NCBI RefSeq assembly: GCF_052324685.1
Contig: NC_135223.1
Coordinates: 11,163,766-11,227,765, forward strand
Source: Brachyhypopomus gauderio
Lineage: Eukaryota > Chordata > Actinopteri > Gymnotiformes > Hypopomidae
Direction of reading: 5' to 3'
Length of the DNA stretch: 64,000 bases
In this document: positions 10,470-64,000 of the stretch, one piece after another
Layout of the letters: every line of letters starts with the position of its first letter
Numbering within the stretch: position 1 is the first letter of the stretch
Made by a program: the position numbers and the translations under genes
The notes under the pieces: model-generated
The model's database searches: none
Told to the model about the DNA's origin: nothing
What the model saw: only the letters and a program-made list of their open reading frames with translations

Positions 10470-11335
10470 ACCACATTCCAAATTATTATGCAAATTATAT
10501 ATTCCTTCAGTTTTCCTAAAGGGTTGATGCAAACGACAGCCAGTATAATCAACGTTAGAGTACAAGTCTAATTTTTTTTTTTATATCCCAATTAAAGTCT
10601 TTTTTTCCCAAAAATTTCAAAACATTCAAAAGCCATCATTTGCTGACCAAGCTGCATGTTAACATATGACCCTTTCTTTGACATCACCTTCACTATTTTA
10701 TTCTTGGAGAGATTCTTCTGGAATTTCATTGCAATCTCAGAATAACTTCCCAGAGTTGCTGTTTTGGTGTGAACTGCCTCCCACCCCAATAGATGTTTTG
10801 CTTGAGGATACTCCAAAGGTTCTCAGTAGGGTTAAGATCAGGGGAGAATGGGGGCCACACCATGACTTTCTCTCCTTTTATGCCCCCATAGCAGCCAATG
10901 ACAGAGATATTCTTGGCAACATTTGATGGTGCATGGTCATGCATGAAGATAATTTAGCTACAGATGGAAGGGTTCTACTACCGTGGCCTACCAACGTTCT
11001 CCCTATGACTCAAGCCCAAAACATGACTCCATCACCTTGCTGATGTCACAGCTTTATTGGGACATGATGACTGTCCACCAGTCATCCACCTGGACCATCC
11101 AGTGTTGGATTGCATTCATCAGTAAAGGGGACAGTTTGAAAATTAGTCTTCATGGATGTCTGGGCCCACCACAACCATTTCTGCTCGTGAGTATTGGTTA
11201 GGGGTGGCCAACTAGGTTTATGCACAGCTACAAACCTCTGGAGTATTAGACACAGTGAGGTTCACAGGCCTCCAGAGGCACCAGTAGCTTCAAATACCTG
11301 TTTGCTGCTTTGTAATTTTAGCAGCTATCTTAATT
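10470..11335 (-). mobile_element. Degenerate Tc1/mariner-like DNA transposon
   Basis: The minus strand at 10726-10944 carries the Tc1 transposase signature PFSPDLNPTENLW, including the catalytic-region glutamate, followed by a family-like C-terminus. Further transposase-like phrases (FTDECNPTLDG, GDGVMFWA) lie on the same strand at about 11030-11150 but in other frames, with stops. A terminal-repeat-like phrase, CACATTCCAAATTATTATGC, lies at about 10472. No matching right end was found. The copy is dead: frameshifts, stops and one missing terminus. It lies between FLCN coding exon 1 and the probable FLCN leader exon. Confidence 0.8.
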
Positions 11336-21809: not shown

Positions 21810-33813
<12,004 letters not shown>

Positions 33814-51535: not shown

Positions 51536-53450
51536 CCCATCACATAAGGAGAAGCGTTGTATGCCAACTGCAAGGCTAAGGAAGGATTAAAGTGTTTTAA
51601 GGCTTCAGACCATTGTCCTTTGTTTGGACAAACACTTTTTCACAATGATGGGTCCATCTCCAAACTTTACATTGACACAGCTGATGTAGTGGTTTTAGCA
51701 GGTAAGACAAGTCCTGAATTATCTTACCATAATAGTTTAGCAGGCCTTGGTAAGAGCACAGCTGACTTGCGCTCTGGGATGCTTCTACTATTGCCTTGAC
51801 CTTGGAAAGAGCTTTGTGTAACTTTTGAGAGTCTATCATCTGCCCAAAGTATTTGACAGATGTCTGAAAAAAAAACTCAGAATTAAACTTGCAAACTCTG
51901 TGTCCATGCTCCTTTAGTCTCTGTATTGTAGCATCCAGGTTTCTCAGATGCTTTCCTGTTTCCCCAGTGATCAGAATGCCGTCATTTGAAGGTAAATCGT
52001 CATTTGAAGGTAAGCTTGGCTAAGGTTGATTATGCTGAATTTCTGTCCTCCAGCTAACTCTGCAAACAAGACTACAATATGAGGTAGTGGGTATCGCTCC
52101 ACTAACACAGGATTAACCATCACTTAAAAATCTCGACATATCCTAACGGTTCTTTTTTCATCACAATATGGGAGGTGGCCCACTTACACAGGCTGACAGG
52201 CTTGAAGACCCAGGATTCCAGATGTGCCTCCACTTTGGGTCTAACTGCATAGGTATCCAGATGAGCTTTCAGAAATTCAGGTTTGGTGTCTGACTTGGTG
52301 TCCAGTTTAACGGTCATGTTTTTCATACTCCCAAGTTCACCCCATAACTTTTCAGCACGCTTATTCAGAACTACTGTCAATCCAGATTCTCCCTTTGACA
52401 TCAAGCAAATTGCAGACCAATCCAGTACGATTCTATCCAACTAAGAACAACCAAGTCATTGTATCTTGTTCACTCGTATATGTGTTCAGTTTAATGCGAG
52501 ATGGATTCAGAGGTAAGTGTGTTTGTACACAGTCTGAGACAATAGAGCCTGCTGCACCAGTATCAATTTCCATACCTCCTGGGTGTCCTTCATTTAATGG
52601 TGAGACCCAGTATCCCTGTGATGCCTTTTGTTATTGTTATGCACATACATTTTAGACTGGAATACACAGACTTTCTGTAGTCTTGTTTCTTAGATTTAAC
52701 TGTGCATTTTTTTATTTTACATGCATATTTGATGTAGCACTTACCTGAGGCCTTGCTCTTTTCAACAGAAACAGTGTACAATTTCCCATTAGTGCTGAGC
52801 TGTTGGGCCTCTTTGGCAGCCAACTCCATGGACACTAATTTCAATAGCCATTTCTGATGTGAGTGCATGTTCAGTCAGAAGGCGTTTCTGGATAGCTTCG
52901 CTCCTCAGCCCACACAAGAGCCTGTCTCGAATCGTGTCATTGAGCACAGAATCCAACTCTCAGTTCTAGCCCTTTTAATGCAGCAACAAACATTACTATA
53001 AACGCTACTTCCTCTTGACCCCTTTTGAGGAATCTAAAACGTTCTCCAATGACTATAGGCTTCAGTGAGAAATGAGCTGACGGAGTGACCACAACAGTTT
53101 CATCCGACTTGCTGCCTGGTTTGTCTAGAGATTGCAGTAAACTGAAAATATTTTGACCTTACAGTCAAAAACGTGGACACCAACGAGTCGTCCTATGCCA
53201 TTTGCCTGAGCAAACTCGTCAAACAAGACTCATCAAGAAGGTCGATATACGATAATCCCAGACATTTCAGATCAGTCTTTACTCACGAGGCCTCGCGTCA
53301 CCTTTTTTTTTTTTTTTGCTTTCTCGTTTTTTCGGTAGCAACGCGCACACCAGCCAGGAGGGAGATACAAACTTCCTTGGTTGTTTCACACATACTTTCT
53401 CTTTGACGGCATGAAAATCAGTTCCATTATTCCTCATCTTGAAGTTGTTC

Positions 53451-57611: not shown

Positions 57612-58000
57612 GATGGAGACCAGTGTTAGCAACCAAAAGAACGAGCAATGCTGTTTTATTATTAAGAAAGAACAACGTAGCGCTTACAGCAGTTTGATTT
57701 GTGTGAAACCGTGAAGTACAGTGTTCCTTTACATATACATATTTCACACATGCACGCGCACAAATTCAAATTACATCTGAACTGATAATTGATATAAATA
57801 ATATATCACATTTTTGAGTGCGTATAGCTTGTGCATAGAATGGCAGAAATAAAAAAAATCTGATGAATATATAGCAAAATGAAAAGCTGAACTTAATTTC
57901 TTGTTGTAAATTGGTTGATTTAGGTAAGGTTTAATTAAACAAAGGCGTAATTAAACTGGTATAAAGTAATTAATACAGAGGTAATAAAATGAAATCATTG

Positions 58001-58001
58001 C

Positions 58002-58048
<47 letters not shown>
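58001..58048. repeat. Compound (GT)n(GA)n microsatellite
   Basis: About 8 GT units followed directly by GA units with one GC interruption. Confidence 0.95.
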
Positions 58049-58049
<1 letters not shown>

Positions 58050-58397
58050 ATGCATTCCTCATTCTGTGATAACCAAACGCTGTGCACCTTTTTGCACTCC
58101 CACTGTGCTGTGTATATGTATAGAATAACCTTATGCTAGTGTGGCAGAATCTCCCTTTTGCCCGTGTGCACCCGTGCCTGTATTGTACATGGCAGCCTGT
58201 GTGCTGGCGTGTGCAGCCTGTGGCAGTGTAAACGCTCTGCTCTGAAGGTATGCTGCTTGTCTCATGTTCGCTGGATGCGCTGTATTCTGCACATGCAGCG
58301 TGCGGTACATACTGTGCTGTATGCTGTGTGTGTACGTGTGTGCTGGTAAGTGGTGTCACAGAAAGCTCTCCATTCTCTGCCACCCACACACTGAACT

Positions 58398-58544
<147 letters not shown>

Positions 58545-58886
58545 CTTCTCTGCCATACCTCTGGCTCTGTTTGTTCCTGTTCCTCTCTGCACTCATTTAA
58601 ATCCCTACCCTGCATTTATCTCTCTTTCTCCCTCTCTCTCTTTCTCTCTCAATCTTTCTCATACATGCACTCACTTACACACTGTCTCTTTCCTCCTATG
58701 TTTTACACTCCTGTCTCATTTTATATCTCACTGATTTTCACAAGCCTCACAAATGCATAAAAAAATCAGATACAGATAAAATACTTCAGGCGCAACAGAA
58801 TAACTAAACTCCCTCTCCTGCATGCACACGCCTGACGCATAACATACTGACACATATAATAATGCGTACCCGCAAGCAACCGAGCG

Positions 58887-59860: not shown

Positions 59861-61187
59861 TTTTTCCAGGGCCACGTCCAGGGCCAAATTAAACCAGTAC
59901 TGAAAGTAATGAAAGACCTCTACCGAACGTCCCATTCCAACAGCACATATATTTGTGCAGTACATTAGTAAAGACTTTAAAAATTAAGTGCAACTTATTA
60001 AAATTTTGATTTATTTTGCCATAAAGGTAATAGAATTCACACCTTTTATCTCATCCACATTGTTGATAAGCTTGATAAAAGCACATTTCTGGAAAAGCCC
60101 TTGTAAAAATGAATCTAGGTTTCTCTTGAACCCTTCGACACTGTTGGAAGACGCCACGAAAGTGCTGTGCAGTCAGAATGATTCCCCATCACACTGACCT
60201 CAGCCATCCCAAGAGTGTACCGCCATAACTAGTCAGACATCAGTGTAGATTAGAACCACAGCATCGAGACAGTAACGTTAGACTTTTATTATGGTTATGT
60301 CAATACAGTTGATTATGAAACACTTTTAAAGGACTCAAGGCAAACTGCATTCAGGGAGTATTACTGGTCAGGGAAATTCTTAAAGACTTAAGTGCCACTG
60401 TTGAATATAAAGAGTGCCCAGATCATGTTGTATTGAAATTATACAGAAGATTGTAAAAAAAAAGAACATTAGTTTACATTTTATGGTGTTTACAGTTGAC
60501 CTTTGCTCTTAAGTGAATAATTCTTCATAATAAGTGCCAAAACCAGGAGAATATACTTACTTAAAAACCTACGTGCTTAAAAAAAAGCCTGTATTTGTTA
60601 GCTAAAAGCCTTCATAAATCAGCTATCACAACTCTGCCTCAACTGATGGTTGATGTAACACAATTATAATGAGGAAAGCCATTTTACCCTTGAGATACAT
60701 ACATGCTTTATCTTATTTTGCCCCAGACCTCTGAGGAAAGGAGAATAGTGAGTGTTTTATGAAGATTAAAAAATCAGCTCACTTTGCCTGAAGGGAGTAG
60801 TACTTCCTGCCCATCTCCAGAGTACTAGAGGAATGATAAGAACTTGCTGGCGTTTTGATTATTTTTCCATAGCACTGGGGTGTTTCCTCTGCTCTTTTTA
60901 AATCTGAGTTTGCCTTGAACCTAAAACGCCGTTGTAATCTCTGTCCCCCGATTCCATCCCGGAACTTTGCACGGAATTGCCCCCCCCCCCATTTTATTTT
61001 ATTTTTTTTACATATAAGAACTTCATTTATTTATGGACTGTTTTGATACTGACACAAAAACACGTTGGACACCCGTGATTTAAATGCTTTTCATGCAGCG
61101 TTAAGGAGGCTGGTTGTAACAGAGGATTCTGCAATGGTGCAGCGCATTGAGTCAGCAAGAGAAAATAGCCTTGTTAGTCACATAGAG

Positions 61188-62579
61188 ATGATGCCCACCT
61201 TGGGAGCTCGAGTGCGTGTCACCCTCCTCTTCCTGCTAATCGTCGCTCCGCTCAACGCATCCTCGGCCAGTGTCCCGGACCCCTCCAGACCCAGGAACGG
61301 CCTCGGCCGACCAACAGTCAGCCCTACTGCCGTTCCCAGGCCCAGCGGCTGGGGGTTGTTGCCACCCCTGTCTAGAGGCGGGACAAATGCACAAGGAAAG
61401 GGTGTGACAGGCCGGCCAAAGTCTCCACCCCCTGTCGCAGAAATGCCACCAAGGCCACAGGCTCAGGTGTTGTTGAAGAACGAAACCCCTCGGCGGCTGG
61501 TCAAAACGGACGTCTGTCGCGGGTACTATGACGTCATGGGCCAGTACGACCCCACCTTCAACTGCTCCAAGGATGACTTCATCTACTGCTGCGGGTCCTG
61601 CCACTTCCGCTTCTGTTGCCCAGATCACTCGCGCAGACTCGACCAAAACAGCTGCCAAAACTACAAACCTCCCGTGAAGGCCACCACCCCCCCGCCTGAC
61701 ACCCAACCCCCCCACCACCTCCCCGACCCTGACCTCAGCCACATCGACCAGAGCAAAGACAATCTACGCATCGTTGGCGGCAAGAGGAAGGGTGTGATAG
61801 TCAGTTCGAAGTCACCGCCGCCCGTCGCAGAGATGCCCCCAAGGCCACAGGCTCAGGTGCTGTGGAAGAATGACACAGCCGACGCCTTAAAGCCTCCACT
61901 CGGGGCCGCAAAGGTGGCCCCGCCCCCTCGGCGGCTGGTCGAAGTGGACGTCTGTCGCGGGTACTATGACGTCATGGGCCAGTACGACCTCACTTTCAAT
62001 TGCTCCAAGGATGACTTCATCTACTGCTGCGGGACATGCCACTACCGCTTCTGCTGCCCAGATCGCTCGCGCAGACTCGACCAGAACAGCTGCCATAACT
62101 ACAAATCGCCCGTGTGGGCAAACACCCCTCCGCCTGGCACAAAACCCCCCCACCACCTCCCCGACCCTGACCTCAGCCGCATCGAACAGAGCAACAACAC
62201 CGTGTATGTCATCGGCGGAGTGATCTCGTTCACGGTCGCAGTGGCGGTCGCCATCAAGGTGGCATTTCACAAGGCGTCTCGGCAACCTCGCAACCGGGAG
62301 CTCAACATGCCCAGGTGAGGAGAAGCAGTTTCGATCTCAGTGTTTGGTTCCGGAGGTTGCCTTTACCTTACCCTCAGCCTCTGGTTTCTGATGTCTCCTT
62401 CTCATGGCCGGTTGGTGCTGGCAGGGCTTTGGTGGACATGCTACGTCACCAGTCCAGCCCCGTGCAGCAGGGGGAGCGAAACAACAGTGTGGCCATCGGC
62501 ACAGGGGGAGGAGGAGAGGGGACCCTGGGCAGACCTCCCAAAAACCTCTACCCTACGCTGCAGAGCAAAGACAACAGAC
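61188..62579 (+). CDS. SHISA7: SHISA7-like synaptic protein with two Shisa domains, 5' part
   Basis: Shisa6/7/9 proteins are single-pass synaptic membrane proteins that modulate AMPA receptors; SHISA7 also modulates GABA-A receptors. Exons in the window: 61188-62314 and 62425-62579; the second ends at donor GTAAGT and the rest lies beyond the window. Residues 1-24 are a signal peptide (core VTLLFLLIVAPL). Two cysteine-rich Shisa domains follow, at 110-156 and 256-302, each with eight cysteines in the same pattern (CRGYYDVMGQYD, YCCG.CH.RFCCPD, LDQNSC). One membrane span lies at 339-358, and the junction then reads RALVDMLRHQ and PPKNLYPTLQ, as in SHISA7. Known SHISA7 proteins have one such domain; here it is duplicated within one exon. 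The start was chosen for the signal peptide; ATG 61191 is equivalent, and the frame stays open upstream to 61065. Assignment to SHISA7 rather than SHISA6/9 rests on the CRGYYDVMGQYD block and on UBE2S as neighbour. Confidence 0.92.
61392..61780 (+). repeat. SHISA7 intra-exon duplication, copy 1
   Basis: The unit starts near CAAGGAAAGGGTGTGACA, encodes KSPPPVAEMPPRPQAQVL and the first Shisa domain, and ends at the IVGG that corresponds to the start of the membrane span in copy 2. It lacks about 16 codons (an A/P-rich spacer) present in copy 2. Its tryptophan before TPPP is replaced by lysine. Confidence 0.93.
61781..62219 (+). repeat. SHISA7 intra-exon duplication, copy 2
   Basis: It abuts copy 1 directly, starting CAAGAGGAAGGGTGTGATA, repeats the proline-rich lead and the Shisa domain, and runs into the only transmembrane segment. 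It is closer to the family consensus than copy 1 (it keeps VWANTPPP), so it is probably the ancestral position. Confidence 0.93.
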
Positions 62580-63088
62580 GTAAGTGCAGACCCATCCTCT
62601 TACAATAGAATTCCATGAGAGACCATCTTACCATCACTGTTCATATGTGATTATGTCCAGCCTTCACACGCTAGAGAAAAACAAAACTAAAAAGTACTCA
62701 ATCTTGGGCTAAGGCTGAGAAATTCCCTTGAATGTATCCATAAATGAGTGGAACAGTATTTACTTTGAGCCGAATGACAGTAGTCCCGCATTAATGTATT
62801 ACCACAAATTCTTCCCTCTGGAAAAGTAGTTCCATCTGTGAAAGAATTAATTATACAGATTTACAGCCTAATTTACAAATATATTTGACTGAGGAACTCA
62901 TAAAAGTATTCACCAAAAACATGTGCTTTGAGATTGAGATTAGGTTGAAAAACACTGGAGTGTTCATTTAACGAAACCAGTTAGGATCCTTTTTTCAGTG
63001 ACTTGAAAAAATACAGCATACAGTGTATCCCCCTCACTTCACCCCTTCACTGCATCACACTCCTGCAGTGGAGGAACTGCCCAAATCC

Positions 63089-64000
63089 TGCCTTACACAC
63101 ACATCTACTCCTGTCCCTCCTGCCTTACACACACATCTACTCCTGTCCCTCCTGCCTTACACACATATCTACTCCTGTCCCTCCTGCCTTACACACACAT
63201 CTACTCCTGTCCCTCCTGCCTTACACACACATCTACTCCTGTCCCTCCTCCCTTACACACATATCTACTCCTGTCCCTCCTGCCTTACACACACATCTAC
63301 TCCTGTCCCTCCTGCCTTACACACACATCTACTCCTGTCCCTCCTCCCTTACACACATATCTACTCCTGTCCCTCCTGCCTTACACACACATCTACTCCT
63401 GTCCCTCCTGCCTTACACACACATCTACTCCTGTCCCTCCTGCCTTACACACACATCTACTCCTGTCCCTCCTGCCTTACACACATATCTACTCCTGTCC
63501 CTCCTGCCTTACACACACATCTACTCCTGTCCCTCCTGCCTTACACACATATCTACTCCTGTCCCTCCTGCCTTACACACACATCTACTCCTGTCCCTCC
63601 TCCCTTACACACATATCTACTCCTGTCCCTCCTGCCTTACACACACATCTACTCCTGTCCCTCCTGCCTTACACACACATCTACTCCTGTCCCTCCTGCC
63701 TTACACACACATCTACTCCTGTCCCTCCTGCCTTACACACACATCTACTCCTGTCCCTCCTGCCTTACACACATATCTACTCCTGTCCCTCCTGCCTTAC
63801 ACACACATCTACTCCTGTCCCTCCTGCCTTACACACATATCTACTCCTGTCCCTCCTGCCTTACACACACATCTACTCCTGTCCCTCCTGCCTTACACAC
63901 ATATCTACTCCTGTCCCTCCTGCCTTACACACACATCTACTCCTGTCCCTCCTGCCTTACACACACATCTACTCCTGTCCCTCCTGCCTTACACACATAT
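63089..64000. repeat. 32-bp minisatellite in SHISA7 intron 2, runs off the window
   Basis: About 28.5 copies of a strictly 32-bp unit (TGCCTTACACACACATCTAC plus TCCTGTCCCTCC). There are three variants: the common one with ACACACATC, one with ACACATATC, and one that also begins TCCC. No copy changes length. Short direct repeats with uninterrupted periodicity and no unique spacers exclude a CRISPR array. Confidence 0.98.

Follow-up and report, generated by a model that had tools for sequence, protein, structure and literature searches.

Does the shisa7 locus on C13 of Brachyhypopomus gauderio encode a receptor-associated protein with two extracellular Shisa domains, and if so, what could the additional domain do? 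The window analyzed here is a stretch of 64,000 nucleotides (C13:11163766-11227765), in which one open reading frame, unbroken over 61053-62318 of the forward strand, houses the whole repeated stretch. From its ATG at 61188 it supplies 375 whole codons before the donor CAG/GTGAGG, which receives the highest donor score across 61188-62640 (7.3 with a rough matrix), and the encoded part of the protein runs from a hydrophobic start and a proline-rich lead through two successive Shisa units to a single membrane span and the start of the cytoplasmic part (Table 1). Pfam recognizes two Shisa_N stretches in the exon 1 protein (1.9e-33) and a single one in each half submitted alone, in agreement with a first-pass annotation that had placed two Shisa units in frame within one exon. 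A match to coronavirus NS7A in the same protein (17.5 bits) falls under the cut-off of 27 and carries no weight.

The eight cysteines said by the annotation to be retained in both copies are indeed there, at residues 110-156 in copy 1 and 256-302 in copy 2, i.e., 146 residues apart with a proline-rich stretch in between, and the protein thus contains twice the pattern C*C*CC*C*CC*C described for CKAMP proteins (PMC10531659). The annotated common core is likewise found in both, since a 33-base pattern written from the sequence has two exact matches and none in 100 shuffles. Hydropathy, scanned over exon 1, exceeds 1.4 at two peaks only, the signal peptide and the single span, and reaches at most 0.38 between the units. 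Copy 1 stops at ...IVGG, while copy 2 continues as ...VIGG/VISFTV into the one span, so copy 1 is cut where the span would begin, as had been proposed. Copy 1, copy 2 and the paralogue on C6 all retain an N-x-T sequon in the lead and a second one, NCS/NCT, in the domain; in copy 1 these are NET and NCS, and it lacks the NNT that precedes the span in copy 2 and C6. The stretch after the span, KVAFHKASRQPRNRELNMPR in the C13 gene versus KVAFHKISRRPRNRDMNMPR in the C6 gene, is conserved in an alignment of these two genes. As predicted from Pfam and hydropathy, the C13 copy of shisa7 is a type I protein in which one signal peptide is followed by two Shisa_N domains and a single span, the architecture that the annotation had described.

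Table 1 Features of the C13 shisa7 gene; positions are those of the window unless C13 is given
Feature	Position	Strand	Basis or remark
shisa7 (C13 copy) exon 1, coding part	61188-62314	+	Open frame; donor GT at 62315; boundary same as in C6 paralogue
Signal peptide region, predicted, MMPTLGARVRVTLLFLLIVAPLNASS	61188-61265	+	Hydropathy windows, residues 1-31
Unit 1 (proline-rich lead, cysteine-rich domain and tail), derived copy	61382-61780	+	Outer limits approximate; aligned part 61392-61781
Shisa_N domain, copy 1	61509-61661	+	Pfam PF13908, 3.2e-17; eight cysteines
Unit 2, ancestral-like, adjoins membrane	61781-62218	+	Outer limits approximate; aligned part 61782-62219
16 codons in copy 2 and C6 paralogue, absent from copy 1	61878-61925	+	Alignment and offsets
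Shisa_N domain, copy 2	61947-62099	+	Pfam PF13908, residues 254-304, best stretch of exon protein; second half alone 2.3e-17; eight cysteines
Sole transmembrane span after signal peptide (exon 1)	62202-62267	+	19-residue hydropathy up to 2.24
GGCGG, candidate breakpoint microhomology	61377-61381, 61776-61780 (junction), 62214-62218 (end of unit 2)	+	
shisa7 exon 2, RALVDMLRHQSSPVQQ...	62425-62579	+	Conserved with C6 paralogue
Later shisa7 exon, beyond window	C13:11228566		
Last shisa7 exon, beyond window, KNEVTV-stop	C13 about 11232844-11233794		

The cysteine pattern, single span, stretch after the span and EVTV end place this gene in the CKAMP (Shisa6-9) group. In trees of exons from this genome, both copies cluster with the C6 paralogue (100/99 in the protein tree, 78/84 in the DNA tree), apart from six other exons. 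By its neighbours and paralogue the gene is probably shisa7, the identity annotated before. On its upstream side, the window contains part of UBE2S and exons that encode an AKAP7-type 2'-5' ligase-like domain, a Tweety domain and a Josephin domain; in human, UBE2S and Tweety, Josephin and AKAP7-like genes lie near SHISA7. Both the C13 and the C6 gene end in KNEVTV, directly followed by the stop in C13, and EVTV is reported as the PDZ ligand of all CKAMP proteins (PMC6470934). The intron after exon 2 contains a 32-base minisatellite (63108-64000, continuing to about window-equivalent 64426) with units like TCCTGCCTTACACACACATCTACTCCTGTCC plus one base; its 14-base core has 40 matches in the joined 30 kb, and it is a source of long spurious open frames. 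Such frames also arise from the CA/GT simple repeats at 25239-25750 and 57970-58600. By eye, 51600-52019 of the reverse strand resembles a retroelement reverse transcriptase (no Pfam match at 0.001), and 10729-10953, also of the reverse strand, a Tc1-type transposase fragment; two stretches like the latter lie close to the C6 shisa7 gene.

A search of the whole genome (796.5 Mb, 840 contigs) with unit 2 and the span as query, at an E-value of 0.001 and with the best candidates scored, returned at least 12 places, i.e., the two units described here and ten others with one match each. The best of the others, C6:1404732-1405235 on the reverse strand, is a one-domain shisa7 gene, which shares 70% identity with unit 2 and the span, the exon 1 boundary, a related exon 2, the last exon with its KNEVTV end and a related downstream gene with zinc fingers of C2H2-like appearance by eye, but has a single unit that carries the 16 codons copy 1 is without. 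The two genes fit a pair of ohnologues, judged from the one downstream neighbour they have in common; in a comparison with 36 kb of C6, no other gene of the window turned up. The remaining nine places each have a single domain, which shares 36 to 49% identity with unit 2. Six are CKAMP-type exons (L004-L008 and L016, on C3 and C6), in which one domain is followed by the span in one frame, and three (on C7, C11 and C34) are Shisa1-3-like and have a longer cysteine spacing, as stated for Shisa1-3 in PMC10531659. In the trees the genes pair as L004/L005, L006/L016, L007/L008 and C13/C6, some with weak supports, which would fit the extra genome duplication of a teleost. One scan each of the collections viral_contigs and genome_contigs yielded no relatives, as expected of collections without fish.

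The two units align as direct repeats at 61398-61486 and 61788-61876 (82%) and at 61486-61761 and 61924-62199 (90%), with a spacing of 390 and then 438 bases, so that the lead and the domain are shifted by 48 bases relative to each other. Of the 390 aligned bases, 59 are not the same in the two units (16, 13 and 30 at codon positions 1, 2 and 3), and about 87 silent sites include 27 that differ. In the protein, 29 of 130 residues differ in the alignment, or 22%, close to the 20% first estimated. Because the copies differ at so many residues and silent sites, the doubling is no assembly echo of one copy, which is what the annotation had argued. Between the copies, dS is 0.40 (95% interval 0.23-0.62) and dN is 0.114, with a ratio of 0.28 (0.17-0.50). 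Silent changes affect 5 of 28 sites in the cysteine-rich part versus 22 of 58; the lower share there, as gene conversion between the copies would leave it, does not reach significance (Fisher p 0.083).

With respect to the order of events, a DNA tree built from nine of this genome's cysteine-rich domains, 55 codons each, places copies 1 and 2 as sisters (99/99) with C6 next, and resolves an order left unresolved by the protein tree. In a comparison over one set of 60 codons, a proportion of 0.14 of the silent sites differs between the copies, as against 0.74 to 0.76 between either copy and C6. The sister relationship and these proportions make the doubling younger than the split of the C13 and C6 genes, barring conversion. 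In the DNA tree, the end branch of copy 1 measures 0.071 and that of copy 2 measures 0.0066. The 16-codon difference between the copies had been noted correctly, however, it is not a spacer gained by copy 2: the C6 gene has these codons along with copy 2, and copy 1 must have lost them. Taken at face value, the overall dS would mean an age of tens of millions of years, a rough figure at usual fish rates, and if it holds relatives should share the doubling. Short GGCGG matches before unit 1, at the junction and at the end of unit 2 are candidate breakpoints, a role that is suggestive only, because the same five bases recur in exon 1 at 61492, 61930 and 62243.

The selective history of the copies was analyzed with branch models, of which the one allowing equal time for both copies was relied on because the free-time model could not fix the omega of copy 2; in both, silent sites to C6 are near saturation. 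With equal times and over the whole unit, copy 1 has an omega of 0.37, with neutrality rejected (p 0.0009), and copy 2 one of 0.014. A common omega for the two is also rejected (p 0.0001 over the unit and 0.037 within the domain), copy 1 being the faster. When the analysis is confined to the 53 codons of the cysteine-rich part, copy 1 has an omega of 0.34 and neutrality is not rejected (p 0.10). The free-time model gives copy 1 an omega of 0.19 (p 0.0056). If copy 1 had started from the codons of copy 2, with residues free to change and stops barred, its chance of keeping all eight cysteines would be 0.04 for the neutral-fit time and 0.003 for the free-fit time. By these measures copy 1 is constrained but relaxed and copy 2 is little changed.

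Could the second domain be absent from the real genome or from the mature protein? With one assembly at hand, two alleles or loci might have been joined in tandem, however, the base differences and the 48-base gap between the units lie far beyond allelic difference, and the junction is in frame with no N in the joined 30 kb around it. A DNA search with unit 1 moreover returns only itself, unit 2 (91% and 83%) and the C6 gene (70%), and such a misjoin is the least credible of the explanations considered here. Removal of one unit by splicing, which would leave a one-domain mature protein, is also very unlikely. Weak donors of the form AGG/GTGTGA do occur at equivalent sites in both units (61402 and 61792, score 1.5), but the exon contains no in-frame pair with a donor above 3 and an acceptor above 2, while its own donor stands well above these thresholds; this is a weak test with rough frequencies, by which the donor and acceptor of exon 2 reach just 2.8 and -0.7. 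The retention of the copy 1 cysteines also speaks against splicing.

A more serious competitor, although we would not bet on it, is that the doubling is real and translated and that copy 1 does nothing but lengthen the stalk, its surface inert, kept in frame by the copy 2 and span that come behind it. The relaxation of copy 1 relative to copy 2, the loss of 16 ancestral codons and of the sequon before the span, and the neutrality test on the domain alone are all compatible with such a tolerated spacer. Against it stand the rejection of neutrality for copy 1 over the whole unit and the retention of eight cysteines out of eight together with two sequons. For copy 1 as a module that is translated and probably folds, the sequence provides fair evidence; the evidence that its surface has a function of its own is weaker. 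On balance, we favour as the probable reading a genuine CKAMP59 with two heads, the distal one retained although its constraint is relaxed.

Structure prediction gave a model of the doubled ectodomain with a mean pLDDT of 55.8 and a pTM of 0.26 (paralogues were aligned to unit 2 only); a separate model of copy 1 has a mean pLDDT of 57.1, likewise low. Both are too poor to use. The doubled model places a hairpin at each domain; a Foldseek search of the PDB with this low-confidence model gave no match at an E-value of 0.001. A sequence search of the PDB with the protein returned a single Shisa chain, a shisa-3 domain, and two viral ORF7a-type chains at chance level (E about 0.5). With a shisa-3 domain as the only one among the PDB matches, the contact between CKAMP ectodomains and their receptors appears to be structurally unsolved.

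Two descriptions of Shisa proteins assign one cysteine-rich domain to each (PMC10531659, PMC6470934), a family trait from which the protein predicted here departs with two Pfam domains. Mouse Shisa7 is described as a glycosylated type I protein that interacts with AMPA receptors (PMC5737659); another group locates it at GABA-A receptors rather than at excitatory synapses (PMC7841293). Mouse Shisa7 (CKAMP59) and the fish protein have in common a signal peptide, a cysteine-rich ectodomain, a single span with a conserved stretch behind it, and an EVTV end; the fish protein differs in having two Shisa_N units, of which copy 1 is shorter by 16 codons. A two-domain Shisa protein was absent from the matches listed in the open-licence literature (titles and starts of abstracts), where phrases for a doubled domain had 0 occurrences. 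Shisa-like proteins were reportedly surveyed by Pei and Grishin in 2012, and public fish genomes may already contain a two-domain form that nobody has remarked on.

For the favoured two-headed protein we propose the following course. A germline tandem duplication inside exon 1 of the C13 shisa7 gene, possibly by unequal exchange at the short GGCGG matches, would have occurred after the split from C6 and yielded a type I CKAMP59/Shisa7 that carries two disulfide-rich heads one after the other. CKAMP44 no longer binds its receptor when 20 residues following the span are deleted, and its cysteine mutants keep binding and lose modulation (PMC6470934). By analogy, the C13 protein would be anchored to its receptor via the short cytoplasmic stretch after its single span, and since the anchor would lie there, the doubling need not alter binding. 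Copy 2, in the ancestral place, would perform the ancestral modulation, and copy 1 would serve as a second, faster-evolving modulatory head, carried farther out on a proline-rich stalk, where it might reach either an adjacent subunit or a part of the receptor that is more distal; the arrangement may thus be one of one anchor and two modulatory heads. The annotation had suggested that the doubled form could contact two receptor subunits or add reach. That selection in a fish lineage keeps the two-headed subunit for a receptor contact of the distal head's own, one CKAMP59 bridging two levels or subunits while copy 2 and the C6 paralogue do the one-headed job, is a tentative proposal, and we hold it to be rather doubtful.

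A two-headed protein and its one-headed paralogue in the same genome provide a natural comparison for separating receptor binding, assigned to the span and the cytoplasmic stretch, from modulation, assigned to the cysteine-rich head, and the pair is equally suited to asking whether the distance of the head from the membrane matters.
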